A stretch of DNA of 64,000 nucleotides from Roseicella frigidaeris (lineage in GTDB: Bacteria; Pseudomonadota; Alphaproteobacteria; Acetobacterales; Acetobacteraceae), in assembly GCF_003258945.1 (NCBI RefSeq), contig NZ_QLIX01000013.1, forward strand, positions 62,001-126,000, read 5' to 3'. This document shows, piece after piece, positions 4,781 through 14,972 of the stretch. The translations under genes and the position numbers were made by a program. The notes beneath the pieces are model-generated. The model worked only from the letters and a program-made list of their open reading frames with translations. It ran no database searches and had not been told where the DNA came from. The first letter of the stretch is position 1; each line of letters begins with the position of its first letter.

Positions 4781-4890
4781 TCGTGACTCTGCCGCCTGCA
4801 GCAACGCGGCATGCATGCGAGGCGATGCACGGCGCGCCACGTCGCGCGAGATGCGCGCGCAAAAATTCGATGCGCAATTTGCGGTTTCTG

Positions 4891-4918
4891 TTGACACGGT
4901 GGTTGCGTGTGCAGATAG
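4891..4918 (+). promoter_or_regulatory. Sigma-70-like promoter ahead of the histone-like gene
   Basis: A perfect TTGACA at 4891-4896, a 16-base spacer, and AGATAG at 4913-4918 as a weak -10. The surrounding 4855-4920 is clearly less GC-rich than the rest of the window, as expected of a promoter. Transcription would start near 4925, about 380 bases before the next gene. Confidence 0.5.
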
Positions 4919-5304
4919 CGTGCAACTGCGCAGGATGTCGCACGCGATTCGCGCGATCTGGAATCGCCGAGTGCAGCGACGGAATGCTGCGGCAGGGAAG
5001 GACGGTCCATGGACCGCAGGCAGCACGGGATGGCGACGCGCCGCGTCGCAGGTCCCGCGCCGGTGCCGGGCAGAGACGCCTCGCCCGGCGAGGGAGACGC
5101 GACCGAGGGAGGCGGAATGCGGCCGAGCGCCGCCGATCGCCCCTGGCAGCGTTCCGCTCGCGCGACCTGGACAGCGACCACGACGGCGCCACGCGCTACG
5201 GGATCCGCGCGCCGCCGCCATCGCACGACCGATCCTGTCTCCACCTGGGATGTCCGCGCCGCGGCGTCCCGGCTCACCACGGAACGCGCAAGGAGATCCT
5301 GACC
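4919..5304 (+). other. Long non-coding leader with hairpin
   Basis: This stretch separates the putative promoter from the GTG of the histone-like gene. It holds a GCGATTC...GAATCGC inverted repeat at 4944-4967 with a 10-base loop. No credible protein is encoded: the frame that is open through it has an amino-acid content typical of a GC-rich shadow frame. It could be a structured 5' leader or a small RNA. Confidence 0.35.
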
Positions 5305-5925
5305 GTGACCGATACCCCCGAGACCCCGAAGGCGCAGGCGATGGCGATGTCGACCACGCGGCGCACCGCCAAGAAGCCCGCCACCGCGCGCGGCCGCGTG
5401 GCCGCGAAGAAGCCGGCCGCCCGCAAGGCCGCGCCGAAGAATGCGGCGGCGAAGAAGCCGGCCGCCCGCAAGCCGGCGGCGAAGAAGGCGACCACCGCGC
5501 GCAAGCCGGCCGCCCGCAAGGCGACGACGACCGCCCGCAAGCCGGCGGCGAAGAAGGCGACCACCGCGCGCAAGCCGGCCGCCCGCAAGGCCGCGACCAC
5601 CCGCAAGCCGGCGGCCCGCAAGGCGACGACGGCCAAGAAGGCCGTGGCGAAGAAGCCCGCCGCCCGCAAGGCGACGACGACCGCCCGCAAGCCGGCGGCG
5701 CGCAAGGCCACCACCGCGCGCAAGACCACCACCACCGCCGCGCGCAAGCCGGCCGCCGCCCGCAAGACCGCCGCGCCGAAGCGCGCCGCCGCCGCGAAGG
5801 CGGCCACCTCCTCGCGCTCGGAAGCCGCCAAGAAGGCCGCCGCGACCCGTGCCGCGAAGAAGGCTGCCGCCGCCAACCCGGCGCCCGCGCCGGAGGCGAT
5901 GAGCGAGGACAGCTCCGCGACCTGA
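5305..5925 (+). CDS. Histone H1-like DNA-binding protein (Lys/Ala/Pro-rich repeats)
   Basis: 206-residue, extremely basic protein built of irregular repeats of the type KPAARKATT, KKPAARKAA and RKPAAKKATT from about residue 24 to 165. An alanine-rich tail ends in acidic residues. Such proteins resemble the C-terminal domain of eukaryotic H1 and bacterial HC1/HC2/AlgP-type nucleoid proteins. They bind DNA without sequence preference and are predicted to be disordered. The GTG at 5305 is chosen because AGGAG lies 9 bases upstream; an ATG 12 codons later (5341) is the main alternative. The gene is monocistronic between a leader with its own promoter and a clear terminator. Repeat slippage could change its length between strains. 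Confidence 0.85.
   Translation: MTDTPETPKAQAMAMSTTRRTAKKPATARGRVAAKKPAARKAAPKNAAAKKPAARKPAAKKATTARKPAARKATTTARKPAAKKATTARKPAARKAATTRKPAARKATTAKKAVAKKPAARKATTTARKPAARKATTARKTTTTAARKPAAARKTAAPKRAAAAKAATSSRSEAAKKAAATRAAKKAAAANPAPAPEAMSEDSSAT
5398..5790 (+). repeat. Degenerate short repeats encoding the AAKKPAARK motif
   Basis: Imperfect tandem units such as AAGCCGGCCGCCCGCAAG and GCCCGCAAGGCGACGACG recur many times within the histone-like gene. Unit length varies (about 18-39 bases, always a multiple of three), so these are coding repeats, not a CRISPR or satellite array. Confidence 0.75.
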
Positions 5926-6786: not shown

Positions 6787-7419
6787 TCAGCCGAAGGTCG
6801 AGAGCAGGTCCTCGACCTCGGCCGGCGTCAGGCTGCGGGGCTGGCGGCCCTGCAGCAGCAGGGCGAGCTTCGCCGCCTCCTCCAGCTCCTCGGCGGCGTA
6901 GACCGCCTCGTCGAGCGTCCGGCCGCTGACGACCGGCCCGTGATTGGCGAGCAGCATCGCCCGTGCTCCCTGCGCCGCGGCGGCGATCGCCGGCGCCATC
7001 GCCGCATCGCCCGGGCGGTAGTAGCGCACCACCGGCAGGACGCGGCCGATCCGCATGACGAAATAGGGCGTCAGCGGCGGGATCGGCGCCGGCTCGCCCG
7101 GCGCGGCGAGACAGGCGATGGCCGTCGCATGCGTCGAGTGCAGATGCACCACGGCGCCCGCCTCCGGCCGCGTCTCCAGCACCGCGCGGTGCATGAAGAC
7201 CTCCTTCGAGGGCGCGTCGCCCGAGACGTGCCGCCAGCCCGGATCGAGCTTGCTGATCCGCGCCGGATCGAGCCGGCCGAGGCAGGCGTTGGTGGGCGTC
7301 ATCAGGTAGCCGTCCGGCAGGCGGACGCTGATGTTGCCGGCGCTGCCCACCGCATAGCCGCGGCCGAAAAGCAGGCGGCCATGCGCGGCGATCGCCTCGC
7401 GGAGCTCGGTTTCGTTCAT
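6787..7419 (-). CDS. otnC: Class II aldolase/adducin family, 3-oxo-tetronate 4-phosphate decarboxylase
   Basis: 210-residue class II aldolase-fold protein. The zinc ligands are recognisable: HLHS (His92, His94) and NHG (His160), with Glu73 as probable catalytic acid and SAGNIS (26-31) as phosphate-binding loop. It lies 19 bases downstream of a DUF1537 kinase (otnK) on the same strand. That pairing is characteristic of the four-carbon acid sugar pathway, in which OtnK phosphorylates 3-oxo-tetronate and OtnC decarboxylates the product to dihydroxyacetone phosphate. AGGAGG sits 5 bases before the ATG. The dehydrogenase and isomerase of the pathway are not in the window. Confidence 0.85.
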   Translation of the reverse strand: MNETELREAIAAHGRLLFGRGYAVGSAGNISVRLPDGYLMTPTNACLGRLDPARISKLDPGWRHVSGDAPSKEVFMHRAVLETRPEAGAVVHLHSTHATAIACLAAPGEPAPIPPLTPYFVMRIGRVLPVVRYYRPGDAAMAPAIAAAAQGARAMLLANHGPVVSGRTLDEAVYAAEELEEAAKLALLLQGRQPRSLTPAEVEDLLSTFG

Positions 7420-7438
7420 CGCGGCCTCCTGCCCTGTG

Positions 7439-8704
7439 TCAGGCGTCGAACGCCTTGAGGAAGAAGTCGCGGGCGCCGAAGTTGCCGCTCTTCAGCGCCA
7501 GGTGCAGCCCGCCGGAGGGAGAGGCGATCTCGGCATGGGTCCAGGGCACGCCCGGATCGATCTCCGGCCCGATGCGCAGCGAGGCGACGTCGAGGCGCGA
7601 GACCACCGCGCCCGAGGTCTCGCCGCCCGCCACCACCAGCCGGCGCACGCCGCGCTCGACCAGCCCCGCCGCGATGGCGGAGAGCGCCTCCTCCACCAGC
7701 GCCCCGGCGGCGTCGCGGCCGAGCTTCGCCTGCAGGGCCGCCACCTTCTCCGGCGGCGCGCTGGCGGCGATGACGACGGGCTGCGCCCCGAGCTTGCCCG
7801 CCGCCCAGTCCAGCGCCTCCGCCACCAGCGCCGCCGCCTCCGGCCGCGCCAGCACGTCCAGCTCCAGCACCGGCGCATGATCGCGGGCGTAGCCGATCTG
7901 CCCGAGCGTGGCGCGCGAGCAGGACCCGGCCAGCACCGCGGCATGGCCAGTCATCGGCGGCAGCGCCGCCGCCGCCTCGCCGCGCTCGGGCAGCAGCCCC
8001 CTGGCGCGGAAATTCGCCGGCAGCCCCATGGCGACGCCGGAGCCACCGGTGATCAGCGCATGCTCAGCCGCCGCCTCGCCGATCGCCAGCAGATGCGCAT
8101 CCGTCACCGCATCGACGATGGCGTAGCGCCGGCCGCTCTCCTTCAGCACGGTCATCGCCCGACGGATGGCCGCCGCGCCCTGCTCGACGGTGGCGAAGGG
8201 CACGAGGCCGACGGCGCCGTCGGTCTGTCGGCCGAGGACGCGGACGAGGTTGGCGTCCCGCATCGGGGTGAGCGGGTGGTTCTCCATCCTGCTCTCGTTC
8301 AGCAGCGCCTGGCCGACGAAGAGATGACCCTGGTAGACGGTGCGGCCATTGGTGGGGAAGGCCGGGTTCGCCAGGGCGAAGCCGCAGTCCAGCCGCCGCA
8401 CCAGGGCGTCGGCGACCGGGCCGATATTGCCCGCCTCGGTGCTGTCGAAGGTGGAGCAGTACTTGAAGAAGATCTGCCGCGCCCCGGCGGCGAGCAGCCC
8501 CTCGCAGGCGGCCAGGCTCTCGGCCACCGCCTCCCGCACCGGCGCGGTGCGCGACTTGAGCGCGACGATGACGGCATCCGCCTCGGGCAAGGGGCCGGAG
8601 GGCACGCCGATCACCTGCACGGCCGTCATGCCGCCCTTGACCAGGGTGTTCGCCAGGTCGGTGGCGCCGGTGAAGTCATCGGCGATGCAGCCGAGCAGGG
8701 GCAT
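7439..8704 (-). CDS. otnK: 3-oxo-tetronate kinase (four-carbon acid sugar kinase family)
   Basis: 421 residues, the usual length of the DUF1537 kinase family. The N-terminal domain starts with GCIADDFTGATDLA (5-18), its substrate-binding signature. The C-terminal nucleotide-binding domain shows VAGGETSGAVV and a late SGNFG motif. The enzyme would phosphorylate 3-oxo-tetronate (L-erythronate, D-threonate type sugars) at C4 with ATP. It is the first gene of a two-gene operon with otnC; GGGAGAG precedes the ATG. No regulator or transporter for the sugar is adjacent. Confidence 0.9.
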   Translation of the reverse strand: MPLLGCIADDFTGATDLANTLVKGGMTAVQVIGVPSGPLPEADAVIVALKSRTAPVREAVAESLAACEGLLAAGARQIFFKYCSTFDSTEAGNIGPVADALVRRLDCGFALANPAFPTNGRTVYQGHLFVGQALLNESRMENHPLTPMRDANLVRVLGRQTDGAVGLVPFATVEQGAAAIRRAMTVLKESGRRYAIVDAVTDAHLLAIGEAAAEHALITGGSGVAMGLPANFRARGLLPERGEAAAALPPMTGHAAVLAGSCSRATLGQIGYARDHAPVLELDVLARPEAAALVAEALDWAAGKLGAQPVVIAASAPPEKVAALQAKLGRDAAGALVEEALSAIAAGLVERGVRRLVVAGGETSGAVVSRLDVASLRIGPEIDPGVPWTHAEIASPSGGLHLALKSGNFGARDFFLKAFDA

Positions 8705-8816
8705 GGTCGTCTCTCTCCCGTGAGCCTGCGGCGCAATCTAGCCCGGCCGGGACCCTGCGGCGATGACCTGCGGCGATGCCCCGCTGCGGATGCTCCGCTG
8801 CGTCAGGGCCGCCCGC

Positions 8817-9260
8817 TCAGGGCGCATCCTCCGTCAGCCGCTTGCGCAGGAAGAGGCGCTCGCCCTGCGGCGGATAGGGCAGGCGGGCGAACTCGACATA
8901 GCCCTGCTTCTCGTAGAAGCCCGGCGCCTGGAAGCTGAAGGTGTCCACCCAGGCGGAGTGGCAGCCGCTCGCCTGCGCCCGGCGCTCGGCGGTGGCGATG
9001 ATGCGGCGGCCGAGCCCGGCGCCGCGCAGCCCCTCCTCGAGCCAGAAATAGCGCAGGAACAGCCAGCCGGCATACATCTCGGCCTGCAAGCCGCCGGCGA
9101 CGCGGCCATCCTGGCGGGCCAGGACATGGATCGCCTGCCAGGGCTGGTGCCCGGGCCATCGCTGCTCGTTATAGGCCTCCAGCCCCTTCGGCAGGGCGTC
9201 GAGATCCTCCTTCGACGGGGCATCCTCGATGCCGAAGCTCAGCCCTGGCGGCAGCGTCAT
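8817..9260 (-). CDS. GNAT family N-acetyltransferase
   Basis: 147-residue GNAT acetyltransferase with all expected elements: a WLEEGLRGAGLGRRII segment (strand 4 and acetyl-CoA P-loop) and the late APGFYEKQGYVEF motif. It would acetylate an amine with acetyl-CoA. The ATG at 9260 is chosen over one at 9272 because the AGGAG site would touch the latter. It is the last gene of the co-oriented 13.5-8.8 kb set, 22 bases after the methyltransferase. It may tailor the product of that cluster or simply be a passenger. Confidence 0.87.
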   Translation of the reverse strand: MTLPPGLSFGIEDAPSKEDLDALPKGLEAYNEQRWPGHQPWQAIHVLARQDGRVAGGLQAEMYAGWLFLRYFWLEEGLRGAGLGRRIIATAERRAQASGCHSAWVDTFSFQAPGFYEKQGYVEFARLPYPPQGERLFLRKRLTEDAP

Positions 9261-9282
9261 GGCGGCACCCATCTCCTTCGGT

Positions 9283-10185
9283 TCAGCGGCGCCGCGGCGG
9301 CAGCGCCAGCAGGTCGTGATGCGCGATCCGCGCCGAGAGCCGCCCGGCCTCGACCTGGGCCAAGCGCGCCGCGGTCCAGGACTGGATGCGCCGGAGGCCG
9401 CGCGGGTCCTGCCGGGCGGCGGCCTCGGCATGGCCCTGCACCAGCTCGGAGAGCAACGCATCGGCATTGGCGCGGAGCGCCGGATGCAGCACCGGGCCGC
9501 GCTGCCGCACCTCCCAGTCGCTCGGCGCCCGCTCCACCGTGAAGCCCCGCGCCGCGAAGATCTCGGCGATCGCGGCCGGGGCGCGCGGCCCGAGCGCGGC
9601 GCCACCGAAGCCCTTGTCGCGCGCCTGATCGCGGCGGAAGCCGGCGGCGACCGGCGCATCGGCCGGGTGCGGCGGGGCGAAGCGCTCGCGCCCCTCGACG
9701 CAGAGCGCCGCATAGAAGGGCAGGCGCAGCGCCGCCGCCATGCGCTCCAGCCAGGGGCGGGAGACGAGGTCGCAGAGCGCCGAGCTCACCACCGCATCGG
9801 CATTCGCCAGCGGCAGGTTGTCCGGCGCCTCGGCGAGATCGGTGATGAGCGTCTCGATCCGCCAGGCGCCGCCGGGGGCGTGCACCAGCAGGGTGCGCCG
9901 GTTGGGCGCGGTGACCGGGAAGCCGATCTGGTCGGCGCGGTCGGCGATGGTGTCGAAGGCGGCCTCGGCCATGTCGCGGCTGCTGTCGACCAGCGTCCAG
10001 ACCTGGGCGCGGCCGAGCCGGGGCGCCAGCCAGCGCAGCAGGCTGCCGGTGCCGGCGCCGAGATCGATGAAGCGCGGCCGCGCCGGCAGCAGCGCCAGCA
10101 GCCGCGCCGCCAGCGTCTCCGACCGCGCCGCGGCATCGAAGGGCTCGCGCAGGTCGAGCCAGTCGAGGGCGAACTCCTCCGCCAT
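9283..10185 (-). CDS. Class I SAM-dependent methyltransferase
   Basis: 300-residue protein with a Rossmann-like methyltransferase core. SAM-binding motif I is FIDLGAGTGSLL (39-50), followed by an acidic motif II (LVDSSRDM) and an alanine-rich second half. The ATG at 10185 has GGAG 7 bases upstream; a TTG one codon earlier is unlikely. It starts 43 bases after the glycosyltransferase stop and precedes the acetyltransferase, so it belongs to the putative biosynthetic operon. It may methylate a sugar or heterocycle made by the upstream enzymes; the substrate is unknown. Confidence 0.85.
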   Translation of the reverse strand: MAEEFALDWLDLREPFDAAARSETLAARLLALLPARPRFIDLGAGTGSLLRWLAPRLGRAQVWTLVDSSRDMAEAAFDTIADRADQIGFPVTAPNRRTLLVHAPGGAWRIETLITDLAEAPDNLPLANADAVVSSALCDLVSRPWLERMAAALRLPFYAALCVEGRERFAPPHPADAPVAAGFRRDQARDKGFGGAALGPRAPAAIAEIFAARGFTVERAPSDWEVRQRGPVLHPALRANADALLSELVQGHAEAAARQDPRGLRRIQSWTAARLAQVEAGRLSARIAHHDLLALPPRRR

Positions 10186-10228
10186 CAACCGTCTCCGCGC
10201 TGCTGGCCGGCCGCGTCGCGGTGCCGCA

Positions 10229-11269
10229 TCACGCGCGCTCCAGCTCGGCGGCGAAGGCGGCGGCGCGGTCGGACCAGCGCGGCAGGCGCTGGCCGGCCTG
10301 CCAGGCAGCCTCGGCCATCTCCCGGCGCATCTCGGTATCGGCGAGCATCCGCCGCAGCGCCTTGGTCAGGGAGACGACATCGCCGGGCGGCGAGACGGCG
10401 CCGGCCTCCATCGGCACGAGATCGGCGATGGCGCCGCCGGCGGTGATGGCGATCGGCAACCCACGCGCCAGCGCCTCGGCCGCCGCCATGCCGTAGCCCT
10501 CCCACCAGGTGGCGAGGGCGAAGAGGTCGGCGCCGCGATAGAGCGCCTCCAGCGCCTCGCCATCGACTTCGCCGGCGAAGGTGACGCGGCGGGTGAGGCC
10601 GAGCGTCTCGGCCAGGGCCTGCAGCCCCTCGGCATGCACCGGGTTGCGGTCGTTGCCGCCGGCGATGGTCAGTGTCCAATCGAGATCCAGCAGCCCGGCC
10701 AGGGCCCGCATCAGCACGTCGTGCCCCTTGCGCGGCACCAGCGTGCCGACGGAGAGGATCGCCGTGCCGGGGCCGCCGGAGCCCGTCGCGCGCGGCGCCG
10801 GATCGGTGCCGGGCTCGACCACGCCGAGGCGCGCCGCCGGCAACTCGAACTCGGCGGCGAGGCGCTGCGCGGTGTGGGGCGAGGTGGCGACGAGGCGGGC
10901 GAGGCGCGGGAAGAGGTCCCGCTCGATGCCGCGCAGCGCCTCCCGGTCCTCCTGCGGCGCGCCGTGCTCGAGGGCCGTCGGGTGGTGGATCAGGCCGATG
11001 GCATGGCGGGCGGCGAGCGGCTCCGCGAGAGCGGCGAAGGCGGGCAGGCCAAGGCCGTCGATGACCGGGCGCGTGTCGGCCGGCAGCGCCTCGAGCGCGG
11101 CGCGCGCCGCGGCCTCGGCCGCTGCGTCGGGCAGCGGATGCCGGCCGGCGAGCTCCACCACCTCGACCGCATGGCCGAGGTCGCGCAGGCCCTCCACCAT
11201 GCGGCGATCATAGATATAGCCACCCGAGAGGGTGGCGAAGGGCCCGGGGAGGATCAGCGCGATCCGCAT
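10229..11269 (-). CDS. Glycosyltransferase family 4 protein
   Basis: 346-residue GT-B fold transferase. The N-terminal acceptor domain opens with RIALILPGP and a Gly-rich SGGYIYDR turn (15-22). The C-terminal donor domain has VGTLVPRKGH (174-183) and the GT4 retaining motif E-x7-E in EGYGMAAAE (257-265). It should transfer a sugar from a nucleotide-sugar donor. The ATG at 11269 is taken because the reading frame upstream is low-complexity and MRIALIL is the natural family start. It follows the PTPS-like gene by 37 bases. In this setting the acceptor is more likely a small molecule than a polysaccharide, which is an inference from its neighbours. Confidence 0.85.
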   Translation of the reverse strand: MRIALILPGPFATLSGGYIYDRRMVEGLRDLGHAVEVVELAGRHPLPDAAAEAAARAALEALPADTRPVIDGLGLPAFAALAEPLAARHAIGLIHHPTALEHGAPQEDREALRGIERDLFPRLARLVATSPHTAQRLAAEFELPAARLGVVEPGTDPAPRATGSGGPGTAILSVGTLVPRKGHDVLMRALAGLLDLDWTLTIAGGNDRNPVHAEGLQALAETLGLTRRVTFAGEVDGEALEALYRGADLFALATWWEGYGMAAAEALARGLPIAITAGGAIADLVPMEAGAVSPPGDVVSLTKALRRMLADTEMRREMAEAAWQAGQRLPRWSDRAAAFAAELERA

Positions 11270-11306
11270 GCGCACCCCCCGCGCGGCCGTCGCGCCAGGC
11301 GCCGCG

Positions 11307-11708
11307 TCATGCGACGGCGCCCTCATAGGCGGCCCAGGCATTCGGGCTCTCGCGCAGCAGCACCTTCAGCGCCGTCACCTGCCCACCCTGGGGACCGAGC
11401 CGGCCCTCGCGCAGCGCGGCGCAGAGTAGCTGGTGGATGTGCCGGCAGAGATATTCGGTGGTGGTGTTCTGCCCGGCGAATTGCCCCTCGTCGTCGAGGT
11501 TGCGGTAGTCGAGCGTATCGAGGGCGCGGCGCAGCTCCGTCTTGGCCAGGCCGATATCCACCAGCAGGTGCAGATGGTCGAGCTGCGGCGCGCGGAATTC
11601 CGCCTCCACCGCGAAGGTGGCGCCGTGCAGGCGCTGGGCCGGGCCGAACTCGGCCCCGCGGAAGCTGTGCGCCACCATGATGTGGTCGCAGACGGTGAGC
11701 GAGAACAT
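11307..11708 (-). CDS. 6-pyruvoyl-tetrahydropterin synthase/QueD-fold protein lacking the catalytic residues
   Basis: 133 residues, the normal size of the PTPS/QueD family. Fold markers are retained: AHSF (His14), LHG (His28), the conserved VDIGLAK (50-56), NTTTEYL (81-87), and Glu120 in RESPNAWAAYEG, which anchors the pterin in true enzymes. The catalytic triad is not kept: Cys is Ala24, His of the LDH motif is Tyr68, and the third zinc ligand of HGH is Ala30. It is therefore unlikely to make tetrahydropterin or carboxytetrahydropterin by the standard route. It may bind or transform a different pteridine-like substrate. It starts 11 bases after the dehydrogenase stop and is followed by the glycosyltransferase, so it belongs to the same operon. 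Confidence 0.78.
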   Translation of the reverse strand: MFSLTVCDHIMVAHSFRGAEFGPAQRLHGATFAVEAEFRAPQLDHLHLLVDIGLAKTELRRALDTLDYRNLDDEGQFAGQNTTTEYLCRHIHQLLCAALREGRLGPQGGQVTALKVLLRESPNAWAAYEGAVA

Positions 11709-11719
11709 CGCGATACCTT

Positions 11720-12718
11720 CTAGGGATAGGTGATGACGGGGCAAGGGGGGGGGGCGGCGCCGGGGGCGAGCAGGCCGGGCAGCCGTTCGGGCAGCTCGGC
11801 GAAGCCGGCGACCGGCGCGCAGAGCGCATCGAGCCGCGGATCCTCGAGCAGGGCGAGGGCGAGGGCGAGCCGCTCCGCATGGCTGCGGCGGCCGCGCATG
11901 GCGGGGGCGACGGCGCCGACCTGCGAGGAGAGCAGGGAGAGCCGCCGGGCATGGAAGGCCTCGCCGAGCGGCAGCGGCACGACGCGGTCGCCATGCCAGC
12001 TCGCCTCGACGATCCGCGCCTCGAAGGCGGCGCGCTCGAGGGCGAGCCGCAGCCCGGCGGCGCTGGCGCTGGCATGGATGATGAGCTCCTGCTCGCCCGG
12101 CGCCGCCTCGGGCAGGGCGAAGCGGGCGCCGATGGCGGCGGCGAGGGCGGCGCGGCCGGGATCGAGATCCACCAACACCGGCGCGAGGCCCGGCATGCGC
12201 GCCAGCAGCGCCGCCACCAGCAGCCCGACCAGGCCGGCGCCGATGACGAGGACGCGCTCGCCGGGCAAGGGGCGCGCATCCCAGAGGATGTTGAGCGCCG
12301 TCTCCATGTTGGCGGCGAGCACCGCGCGATGGTCCGGTACCGCCTCCGGCACCGGGATGCACATGCTTGCCGGGGCGAGGAAGCGGTCCTGGTGCGGGTG
12401 CAGGACGAAGACGCGGCGCCCCTGCAGCGCCGGCGGCCCGGCCTCCACCACCCCCATGGCGCAGTAGCCGTACTTCACCGGGAAGGGGAACTCGCCCGCC
12501 ATCAGCGGCGCGCGCATGGCGGCATGCTGGCTCGGCGGCACGCGGCCCTCGAGGACCAGCCGTTCGGTGCCGCGGGAGAGGGCGGAGGCTCGGCAGCGCA
12601 CCAGCGCCTGGTCCGGCGCGGGCGGCGGCAGCGTCTCCTCGCGCAGCTCCGCCCGGCCGGGCGCCACGATCCAGAGCGCCCGGGCCTGGCGGCCCGGCTC
12701 CGGCGCGGGTGCCGTCAT
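11720..12718 (-). CDS. MDR-superfamily dehydrogenase without zinc ligands
   Basis: 332-residue medium-chain dehydrogenase/reductase. The GroES-like N-terminal half has SRGTERLV (48-55) where zinc enzymes carry the Cys of CGTD, so the catalytic zinc site is absent. A KYGY segment (82-85), an LHPHQ segment and NMETALN follow. The Rossmann nucleotide site is VLVIGAGLVG (156-165). Such enzymes reduce or oxidise without metal, like quinone or enoyl reductases. Its ATG overlaps the stop of the RibD-like gene by 4 bases (ATGA), so translation is coupled. The close link to PTPS- and RibD-type proteins suggests a redox step on a pteridine- or pyrimidine-derived intermediate. Confidence 0.8.
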   Translation of the reverse strand: MTAPAPEPGRQARALWIVAPGRAELREETLPPPAPDQALVRCRASALSRGTERLVLEGRVPPSQHAAMRAPLMAGEFPFPVKYGYCAMGVVEAGPPALQGRRVFVLHPHQDRFLAPASMCIPVPEAVPDHRAVLAANMETALNILWDARPLPGERVLVIGAGLVGLLVAALLARMPGLAPVLVDLDPGRAALAAAIGARFALPEAAPGEQELIIHASASAAGLRLALERAAFEARIVEASWHGDRVVPLPLGEAFHARRLSLLSSQVGAVAPAMRGRRSHAERLALALALLEDPRLDALCAPVAGFAELPERLPGLLAPGAAPPPCPVITYP

Positions 12719-13503
12719 CGCGTCGCCGCGCCCGGCCGCGCCCGGTCGAGCGCGATGTCGAAGAGCACGTCGGGGCCGAGCGGATGGACCGTCCAGGCGA
12801 AGCGCAGCCCGTCGGCGATGCGGGCCACCTCGGGCAGGGTGAAGGCGGGCACGCCCGAGCCGAGCAGCACCGGCGCCACCGTCACATGCAGCCGGTCGAG
12901 GCAGCCGGCGGCGAGGAAGCGGCTGACCGTGACGCCGCCGCCCTCGACGAAGATGCGGGTGAGGCCGCGCGCGGCCAGCGCGGCGAGGATGGCGGGGACG
13001 CGCAGCCCGCCATGCGTGGCATCGCGCGGCAGCCGCAGCACCTCGGCCATGCCCAGCCGCTGCGGTCCGGCCGCGTCCTCGGCGCAGAGGAGGAGGGTCG
13101 GCGGCCCGTCACGGAACACGCCGAACGCGGCGCCGAGCCGGCGGTCGGTGTCGAGGATCACCCGCACCGGGCTCGGCCCGGTGCAGTCGCGCGTGGTCAG
13201 CCGCGGATCGTCCTGCCGGACCGTCCCGGCGCCGATGACGACGGCGTGGCAGAGGGCGCGCAGCCGGTGCGTGTGCAGGATGTCGCCGCGGCCGCCGATC
13301 CATTGCGAGGAGCCGGAGGCGGTGGCGATGCGCCCGTCCAGGGTCTGCGCCAGGCGGCCGACGACGATGCAGCCATCGGCGGCGCGCGGCGGGGCAAGCA
13401 GCGGGCCGAACAGCGCGCCGAGCGGGCCGCCGGGCAGCGGGCCGGGCGCGTCGCGCAGCCGCAGCAGCGACTCCCAGTCGGTGTGGCGAGCGGTTCCATC
13501 CAT
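12715..13503 (-). CDS. RibD C-terminal domain (pyrimidine reductase-like) protein
   Basis: 262-residue protein with the RibD_C / dihydrofolate-reductase-like fold and no deaminase domain. Motifs are QTLDGRIA (53-60), GAGTVRQDDP (91-100) and the NADPH-binding VEGGG (186-190). Family members reduce the ribosyl chain of a diaminopyrimidinone in riboflavin synthesis, but free-standing versions act in other pathways. The start is uncertain: the ATG at 13503 has no obvious ribosome-binding site, though residues before it look non-homologous. Its stop overlaps the dehydrogenase start (ATGA). It is the first gene of the cluster, 131 bases downstream of mobA. Confidence 0.82.
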   Translation of the reverse strand: MDGTARHTDWESLLRLRDAPGPLPGGPLGALFGPLLAPPRAADGCIVVGRLAQTLDGRIATASGSSQWIGGRGDILHTHRLRALCHAVVIGAGTVRQDDPRLTTRDCTGPSPVRVILDTDRRLGAAFGVFRDGPPTLLLCAEDAAGPQRLGMAEVLRLPRDATHGGLRVPAILAALAARGLTRIFVEGGGVTVSRFLAAGCLDRLHVTVAPVLLGSGVPAFTLPEVARIADGLRFAWTVHPLGPDVLFDIALDRARPGAATR

Positions 13504-13634
13504 CGGGCGCGGACCATGCGGGAAGGCGGGCAGGGATGCCAGCGGATCGAGGCGCCGGGAAGGCGGGCAGCGCCCGGCCGGCACCGGATCGTGGCGAGGC
13601 GCGAACGCCGCGGGAGCGCGGGTGTTCGCCGGCC

Positions 13635-14282
13635 TCAGGCGGGCAGGCCGGGCAGCATCGCCTCCGCCCGGGCCAGGTCCTCCGGCGTGTTGGCGTTGAA
13701 GAAAGGATCGCAGGGCGTCGTCGGCCACGTCGCCGTGGCGCAGCCGAGATGGGCCGCGATCCGGCCGGCCCGGCGCTCGCCGGCCTGCAACGCATCCCGC
13801 AGGGCATGGCGCAGGCCGACCGGCCAGAGGGCGATGGGCGGATGCTGCCGCCCGGCGGAGGCGGCGCAGGCGATGGGCAGGCCGGCATCGCGCCGCGCCG
13901 CCGCGAGCCGCGTCGCCAGGTCGGCAGGCAGGAAGGGCGTGTCGCCGGGAACGGAGAGCAGGTCCGGCAGGTCCGGGCGATGCGCCGCCGCCCAGTCGAG
14001 CGCGGCCAGCACGCCGGCCAGCGGCCCGGGATGCCCGGGCAGGGAATCCGCCACCACCGGCAGGGCGAGGTCGGCGAAGCGCGCGGCCTCGCCATTGGCG
14101 TTGAGGATGACTGCGGCGACCTGCGGCCGCAGCCGCGCCAGGACATGGCCCAGCAGGGGGCGGCCGCCGAGTTGGCGCAGCGGCTTGTCGCCGCCGCCCA
14201 TGCGCCGCGCCAGGCCGCCGGCCAGGATCACGCCGAGGATGGCGGGCGCCGCCGAGGCAGGGCTGGGTGCGGCCTGCCTCAT
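13635..14282 (-). CDS. mobA: Molybdenum cofactor guanylyltransferase
   Basis: 215-residue nucleotidyltransferase. The GTP-binding signature LAGGLARRMGGGDK (20-33) and a VPGDTPFLP motif containing the metal-binding Asp identify MobA. It attaches GMP from GTP to Mo-molybdopterin to give the bis-MGD precursor. The ATG at 14282 is preferred; an upstream ATG would add about 32 low-complexity residues. It may share a promoter with the RibD-like gene downstream, but the 131-base gap makes this uncertain. Confidence 0.9.
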   Translation of the reverse strand: MRQAAPSPASAAPAILGVILAGGLARRMGGGDKPLRQLGGRPLLGHVLARLRPQVAAVILNANGEAARFADLALPVVADSLPGHPGPLAGVLAALDWAAAHRPDLPDLLSVPGDTPFLPADLATRLAAARRDAGLPIACAASAGRQHPPIALWPVGLRHALRDALQAGERRAGRIAAHLGCATATWPTTPCDPFFNANTPEDLARAEAMLPGLPA

Positions 14283-14374
14283 GGCGACCGCCCATGGCGC
14301 GCCGCCAGGGCGCCTGGCCGCGGCCGGAGATGGGGTGGCATGCCGACACAGGGTGGCGAGCCGCCCGGCCCCGC

Positions 14375-14400
14375 GCAACCCGGCCGGTGGCGGTGACGTT
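14375..14400 (+). promoter_or_regulatory. EcfG-like promoter (one mismatch)
   Basis: GCAAC at 14375-14379, 17 bases, then CGTT at 14397-14400. This differs by one base from the alphaproteobacterial general-stress consensus GGAAC-N16/17-CGTT. The ATG of the BON-LysM gene is 26 bases further on, a plausible leader length. Confidence 0.35.
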
Positions 14401-14426
14401 TATCGGCCACAATCGGGAGGACATCC

Positions 14427-14972
14427 ATGCCCACCTATCGCTTCCCCGCCGAGGCCGGCCTGGCCCTGGACGGAGGAGCGCTGACCGCCGATGCCATCAA
14501 CCACCGGCTCAGCGCCCTCGGCTTGACGCGCGAGGGGATCACGGTCAGCCGGAACGACGACGCCGTCACCCTGGAAGGCCGGCTGCCGGATGAGGCGACG
14601 CGGGAGCGGGTGCTGCTCGCGGTGGGCAATCTGCAGGGTGTGGCGCGCGTCGATGACCGGATGACGGTGGCGCAAGCCCGGGAGGGCCTGCTCGGCACGC
14701 TCGGCGCCTTCGCCCGGCTGCCCTCCGGGAGCGCCACTATCGAGGCGGCGGAGCGCGCGGTGCATGCGGCGCGGCCTGATCCCGATGCGCGGTTCGGTCC
14801 GGGCGGCAGCATCCTGCACGTGGTGCAGCCGGGGGAGACGCTGGAGGCGATCGCGGCCCGGCACTACCACGACACCGCGGCGGCCGGCTGGATCCTGGAA
14901 TCCAACGATCCCGTGGTGTCCGACGCCGCGTCGCTGCGGCCGGGCATGGTGCTGCGATTGCCGCCCCGTTAG
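14427..14972 (+). CDS. BON and LysM domain protein
   Basis: 181-residue protein with a BON domain (about 20-82; LEGRLPDEATRERV and LQGVARVDDRM are typical) and a C-terminal LysM domain (130-179; HVVQPGETLEAIA...LRPGMVLRLP). This architecture matches YgaU/LysM-type proteins, which bind peptidoglycan or potassium and rise under osmotic or stationary stress. No signal peptide is visible, as in YgaU. GGGAGGA is placed 5 bases before the ATG. A near-consensus EcfG promoter lies just upstream. It is divergent from mobA. Confidence 0.88.
   Translation: MPTYRFPAEAGLALDGGALTADAINHRLSALGLTREGITVSRNDDAVTLEGRLPDEATRERVLLAVGNLQGVARVDDRMTVAQAREGLLGTLGAFARLPSGSATIEAAERAVHAARPDPDARFGPGGSILHVVQPGETLEAIAARHYHDTAAAGWILESNDPVVSDAASLRPGMVLRLPPR

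Follow-up and report, generated by a model that had tools for sequence, protein, structure and literature searches.

We analyzed a 64,000-nucleotide stretch of the Roseicella frigidaeris genome (contig NZ_QLIX01000013.1, positions 62,001 to 126,000; hereafter the window), in which six closely packed minus-strand genes occupy positions 8817–13503. Judged by gene content and order across genomes, five of them constitute a recurrent biosynthetic unit: a RibD_C-type reductase, a zinc-less medium-chain dehydrogenase/reductase (MDR), a protein resembling 6-pyruvoyltetrahydropterin synthase (PTPS), a GT4-family glycosyltransferase and a class I S-adenosylmethionine (SAM)-dependent methyltransferase. 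We propose that this unit would convert GTP into a small molecule of the pteridine type bearing sugar and methyl groups, a proposal that we regard as evenly balanced between right and wrong.

None of the six frames contains an internal stop. The first core gene, a reductase of a distinct RibD_C subfamily (12715–13503; Pfam RibD_C, E 2.5e-38), shares a 4-base ATGA overlap with the MDR gene (11720–12718), which we recognized by its fold model and by the residues at its zinc-ligand places. After gaps of 11, 37 and 43 bases, respectively, come the PTPS-like T-fold protein P0003 (11307–11708; Pfam PTPS, 8.5e-23), the glycosyltransferase P0004 (10229–11269; PF00534 Glycos_transf_1, E 6.9e-30) and the methyltransferase (9283–10185, with its start ATG at 10185; a weak Methyltransf_25 match, 5.3e-6), all on the minus strand. 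A scan of 8600–14500 for sigma-70-type promoter and intrinsic-terminator patterns returned none. A preliminary description of this DNA had given the same six-gene layout, and its overlap and gaps are exact to the base. The families it had named also stand: RibD, PTPS, GT4 and GNAT by Pfam matches, and the methyltransferase by a weak Pfam match together with a fold match.

That description had set conserved co-occurrence in other genomes beforehand as a test, and such co-occurrence was found in three samples totaling 103 loci, mapped with seed-built profiles at cut-offs chosen by hand. The first comprises 61 loci from a contig scan with the PTPS-like protein (PTPS-found), some of them truncated by contig ends; they come mainly from Acetobacteraceae genera or carry Acetobacteraceae, Rhodospirillales or Alphaproteobacteria labels, with a few others, such as one Myxococcales metagenome-assembled genome (MAG). 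The other two were found with the MDR: a class sample of 190 genomes, of which 22 matching genomes besides the window's own were examined with their flanks, and 20 of 33 matching plasmid records, five of the 20 lacking annotation. All five core genes occur together in 36/61 PTPS-found, 16/22 class-sample and 11/20 plasmid loci, and the MDR lies directly upstream of the PTPS-like gene in 57/61, 21/22 and 18/20. Taken singly, and in the same order of samples, the reductase is present in 54, 17 and 12 loci, the GT4 gene in 47, 20 and 16, and the methyltransferase in 41, 20 and 18. Complete sets include those of Thiodictyon (L094), Streptomyces globisporus (L111) and Microbacterium (L099); plasmid loci also derive from Methylosinus, Agrobacterium, Rhizobium and Palleronia, and Arthrobacter and the haloarchaea have partial core sets only. 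That most of these genes belong to large superfamilies would suit unrelated housekeeping genes that are adjacent by chance, but their joint recurrence across phyla effectively refutes this reading, to which we assign next to no probability.

Close relatives are common. An MDR matching at E 1e-40 or better was found in 23 of the 190 class genomes, the window's own among them. Within the window's family, 44 of the 100 genomes sampled, again counting its own, have the PTPS-like gene. The window's PTPS-like protein is 95% identical to its counterpart in Roseicella sp. DB1501, and one genome of the genus, G213, shows a 95% match at that record's contig position. In an MDR tree of 52 rows, midpoint-rooted for drawing, its bootstrap unsettled and 21 of its 49 inner branches open, the Streptomyces pair joins a single row from an alphaproteobacterium (96/92); the haloarchaea group together as one clade (100/100), next to the Myxococcales MAG (99/98). 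Transfer between phyla is likely on this evidence, in a direction that the tree does not give.

The PTPS-like protein P0003 has a single match among PDB sequences at 1e-3: SCO6650 of Streptomyces coelicolor (3d7j; E 1.4e-39, residues 1–131 of 133), with which it has the stretch FGPAQRLHGATF in common. The two belong to one protein family, which is already known as a solved structure. SCO6650 reportedly has a pterin-type pocket and no PTPS activity, and its own activity is said to be unassigned. At the aligned places that we take to be the catalytic Cys and the second zinc-binding His of HGH, P0003 carries A24 and A30, in agreement with the earlier label of a catalytically altered PTPS. Among 102 aligned PTPS-like rows, Ala occupies the first of these places in 97 and the second in 96. 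H14 and H28 are each conserved in 100 rows, the other two having gaps, position 68 is Tyr in 95, Glu85 is kept in all 102, and Glu120, presumably the pterin-anchoring Glu, is kept in 101. No bacterial row covering the second zinc place has His there. His is found at this place in four rows, all haloarchaeal (L100, L101, L107 and L109); L100, L107 and L109, which span the motif in full, read ExxxHSH, with Glu where the catalytic Cys would be, and L101 starts later. As an alignment control, a second PTPS gene of the host genome, on contig 56, has Cys and HGH intact.

The PTPS-I (QueD), PTPS-II and PTPS-III motifs, which PMC5041015 gives as CxxxHGH, CxxxxxHGH and ExxHGH, are absent from both the window protein (AxxxHGA) and the three covering haloarchaeal rows (ExxxHSH); the same paper terms PTPS-V 'still unclear'. 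P0003 shares with PTPS/QueD (COG0720) the Pfam family, above cut-off, but not these published motifs. Assignment of the haloarchaeal proteins to PTPS-III was considered and rejected, because in the three covering rows the Glu stands at the Cys place rather than one residue on, as in the published motif.

As in riboflavin synthesis by RibA and RibD, a RibD_C-type reductase is present and GTP cyclohydrolase II (GCH II) recurs nearby, but the cluster reductase forms a separate subfamily; no Pfam deaminase match was found, and P0001, the window's reductase, falls below the NCBIfam RibD cut-offs (TIGR00227, 132.4 bits against 150.15; TIGR00326, 112.7 against 156.35). Pfam returns nothing for the MDR at E 1e-3, and its NCBIfam matches are all below threshold; the best, BchC (TIGR01202; 6.4e-13), reaches 48.5 bits against a cut-off of 291.25. 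Its AlphaFold model (predicted local distance difference test score, pLDDT, 90.4) places alcohol and polyol dehydrogenases first in Foldseek, led by RspB, a Sinorhizobium dehydrogenase and L-idonate 5-dehydrogenase. The description 'zinc-less' fits the family: Ser48 and Tyr85 are each found in 99 of 100 rows at what we take to be the two zinc-ligand positions, those of the catalytic Cys and of His, which are assumed rather than set by alignment to a zinc enzyme. His109 is conserved in 99 of the 100 rows, and Glu139 and His256 in all of them.

Of the two proposed decorating enzymes, P0004 contains the E-x7-E stretch EGYGMAAAE, presumably the GT4 motif. The methyltransferase has no match among PDB sequences, and its AlphaFold model (pLDDT 95.8) finds many class I methyltransferases in Foldseek (best E 5.4e-11), none pointing to a specific function.

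Evidence for the starting compound comes from genes around the MDR-found loci. Of these 42 loci, 16 have GCH II nearby (nine plasmid, seven class sample), and three have archaeal GCH IIa, an enzyme unrelated to GCH II; a rough model that assumes 17 kb windows and a density of three genes in 3.5 Mb would predict about 0.6 of the 42. A weak, degenerate GCH II match at L140 (68 bits) was excluded by the cut-off, and GCH II was found near none of the 61 PTPS-found loci. GTP cyclohydrolase I (GCH I) gave no match in the 103 relative loci, using phmmer at 1e-5 with the host's two folE as queries and no positive control. The recurrence of GCH II and GCH IIa, with GCH I unmatched, indicates that the pathway would be entered via the GCH II product.

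The cluster-linked cyclohydrolases fall into two kinds at one position, Tyr105 of E. coli RibA, which we located by alignment to 2bz0. The 14 proteobacterial GCH II proteins have the motif cysteines and the Tyr105 equivalent intact; the two from Streptomyces clusters have Met at that place and a creatininase gene alongside. SCO6655, the GCH II that we take to lie in the neighborhood of SCO6650 in S. coelicolor, is said to have Met there too and to make the formylated intermediate FAPy; GCH IIa forms FAPy likewise. In the host genome (a 5.8 Mb assembly in 87 contigs) there are three GCH II matches. The contig 34 protein is stand-alone, with canonical motifs and Tyr; on contig 12, a frame resembling GCH II that lies close to ribD (L151) has lost its motif cysteines; and the contig 87 protein is divergent, with three cysteines kept. 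Because the contig 12 copy has lost these cysteines, the contig 34 enzyme may serve riboflavin synthesis as well.

These observations suggest the following route. GCH II, encoded elsewhere in the host genome, would open GTP to a ribosylaminopyrimidine phosphate, the RibD-like enzyme would reduce the ribosyl chain to ribityl, and the MDR would oxidize the C2' hydroxyl to a ketone, giving a 1-deoxy-ribulosylamino intermediate. GCH I arrives at this same intermediate through an Amadori rearrangement. Closing the ring to a dihydroneopterin-type pterin would then fall to the PTPS-like T-fold protein, with its pterin-binding Glu kept and its zinc site not; the GT4 enzyme would glycosylate this pterin and the methyltransferase methylate it. 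Such a route would account for the pairing of a reductase with a dehydrogenase, for GCH II in place of GCH I, and for a T-fold protein without zinc. The preliminary description had suggested a glycosylated, methylated pteridine or ribityl-type compound with acetyl transfer included; GCH II as a recurrent partner fits the first part, the GNAT acetyltransferase does not belong to it (see below), and we infer both the product and the reactions.

The same enzymes could instead yield a decorated ribitylaminopyrimidine or lumazine-like compound, in which case GCH II and the RibD-like reductase would supply the ribityl compound, the MDR would oxidize its chain and the T-fold protein would bind or isomerize it without closing a ring. 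GCH II and RibD are, after all, riboflavin-type enzymes, the PTPS-like protein is without the canonical catalytic residues, and its relative SCO6650 reportedly pairs a pterin-type pocket with a lack of PTPS activity. This reading leaves the retention of a PTPS fold unexplained, however, and the near-invariance of the Glu that presumably anchors the pterin speaks against it; we think it possible but doubtful, with perhaps a quarter of the weight.

Several observations weigh against the pterin route that we prefer. The window cluster has no adjoining cyclohydrolase: as the preliminary description had claimed, none is encoded in the window, and every host match to GCH I or GCH II is on another contig. 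Within the reductase subfamily the conserved Q-x-LDG and H-x-HRLRA positions depart from the host's other RibD (contig 12), which has other residues there, so that its substrate may differ from that of RibD. RibD is also absent beside five of five haloarchaeal and five of 22 class-sample clusters. Two of those five class genomes encode a RibD elsewhere that is 55% (G028) or 52% (G035) identical to P0001; the best matches elsewhere in G175 and G096 are 43% and 36% identical, and there is none in G064, which is 68% complete. For the MDR, zinc-less quinone-reductase relatives (VAT-1) stand among the Foldseek top ten, so that a polyol is only a candidate substrate. The creatininase gene appears not only beside the Met-type cyclohydrolases but also at L145, with a Tyr-type GCH II, and at L143, without GCH II; L101 too has a creatininase and no GCH II. 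These three loci weaken the case, suggested by the two Met-type Streptomyces loci (2/2), that creatininase, as a putative FAPy deformylase, and a FAPy-forming GCH II are strictly paired. At L095, the creatininase scores 141 bits with the MftE model (cut-off 172) against 37 bits with ArfB (cut-off 180). Finally, the 42 loci were chosen by MDR similarity at hand-set cut-offs and seven of the rhizobial plasmids are close kin, so their counts are not independent.

A further difficulty is a variant locus. Twelve loci of the PTPS-found 61 (L027, L029, L031, L035, L041, L043, L044, L049 and L053–L056) carry, behind the PTPS-like gene, a crotonase-family gene that replaces GT4 and methyltransferase, neither of which was found in these loci at the cut-offs used. 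It comes directly after the PTPS-like gene in ten; in the other two, overlapping open reading frames (ORFs) place it further on. Seven of the 12 then have a frame related to a second, UbiE-like methyltransferase frame. L042 has neither GT4 nor crotonase after the PTPS-like gene. Because the crotonase loci dispense with GT4 and methyltransferase, RibD–MDR–PTPS may be an inner module of the unit. Taken together, the altered reductase, the absence of RibD in haloarchaea and the crotonase variant oppose a simple version of the proposed mechanism.

Other recurrent neighbors raise the question of whether the product is coupled to lipid. Among the 42 MDR-found loci, a CDP-alcohol phosphatidyltransferase gene occurs in 20 (6/22 class-sample, 14/20 plasmid), cytochrome b561 in 11, an LPG-synthase-TM protein in nine and an MdoH-type glycosyltransferase in six. 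The molecule might accordingly be a membrane-lipid head group or a carried part, attached by the CDP-alcohol enzyme and moved or reduced by the flippase-like and cytochrome b561 partners. Yet the CDP-alcohol enzyme lies near only one of the 61 PTPS-found loci, and the host genome has three CDP-alcohol genes whose neighborhoods give no match to the cluster-type profile. Lipid coupling would then be an add-on of other taxa, outside the window's pathway, and we consider it unlikely as an account of the unit itself. The remaining partners were sulfatase-like (10), FkbM (10) and creatininase (five) genes; when the genes predicted in the 42 loci were clustered all against all, no additional family exceeded five loci.

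Combining these elements, the unit could represent a second route to pterins, one free of GCH I, in which GCH II and a reductase–dehydrogenase pair achieve with two redox steps what GCH I achieves by an Amadori rearrangement, and ring closure falls to a PTPS relative lacking the zinc site. Such a route would be common to bacteria and haloarchaea, the latter with GCH IIa and the second zinc His kept, and in many lineages would be lipid-coupled via the CDP-alcohol phosphatidyltransferase. In this full form we consider it rather unlikely.

Directly downstream of the core, after a gap of 22 bases, is the GNAT acetyltransferase gene (8817–9260, minus strand; Pfam Acetyltransf_1, 1.5e-11), which is nearby in 10 of the 61 PTPS-found and none of the 42 MDR-found loci. 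These counts rule it out as a core member, and the acetyl transfer once ascribed to the pathway was not borne out. Next come otnC and otnK, encoding 3-oxo-tetronate 4-phosphate decarboxylase and kinase (6787–8704, minus strand), and just upstream of the cluster is mobA, encoding molybdenum cofactor guanylyltransferase (13635 to ~14282, minus strand; above its equivalog cut-off). With otnK near 39 of the 61 and mobA near 12 of the 61 PTPS-found loci, and both near 0 of the 42 MDR-found loci, neither can be counted as a member of the unit; outside close relatives, none of the three genes accompanies the core in our samples. Since OtnK and OtnC exceed their NCBIfam equivalog cut-offs and otnK adjoins so many PTPS-found loci, the core genes might be thought to serve 3-oxo-tetronate (sugar-acid) catabolism with them. 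The absence of otnK from every MDR-found locus makes this very improbable, and the adjacency appears to be local synteny. Elsewhere in the window, the plus-strand ORF 4783–5925 contains a frame with Lys/Ala/Arg/Thr repeats of the KKPAARKATTARKPA type, which we take to resemble histone-H1-like proteins.

Among described systems, the closest is SCO6650 with its neighborhood, which presumably includes SCO6655. Two Streptomyces plasmids carry MDR–PTPS–GT4–methyltransferase with GCH II and creatininase, whereas the window cluster has neither of these last two beside it and is followed by GNAT and otnK. Cyanobacterial pterin glycosides (cyanopterin and tetrahydrobiopterin-glucoside, made by PgtA/BGluT; PMC3546692) share the idea of a glycosylated pterin, a likeness in concept, and the excerpted account mentions no MDR, RibD or zinc-less PTPS partner. 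The main text of a 2026 review of bacterial pterins (PMC13259868) contains no reference to cyclohydrolase II, PTPS, gene cluster, 6-pyruvoyl or RibD. In the open-licence literature, a search that leaves most subscription papers outside, we found no description of the cluster as a pathway.

Current annotation conceals the unit: plasmid records call the PTPS-like gene a 6-carboxytetrahydropterin synthase, with a note on queuosine, and the window protein is without the QueD motif. Relatives of the unit occur in both bacteria and archaea, and given such a wide distribution, its product is likely a compound of general use. The conserved partners would let its function be tested one enzyme at a time.

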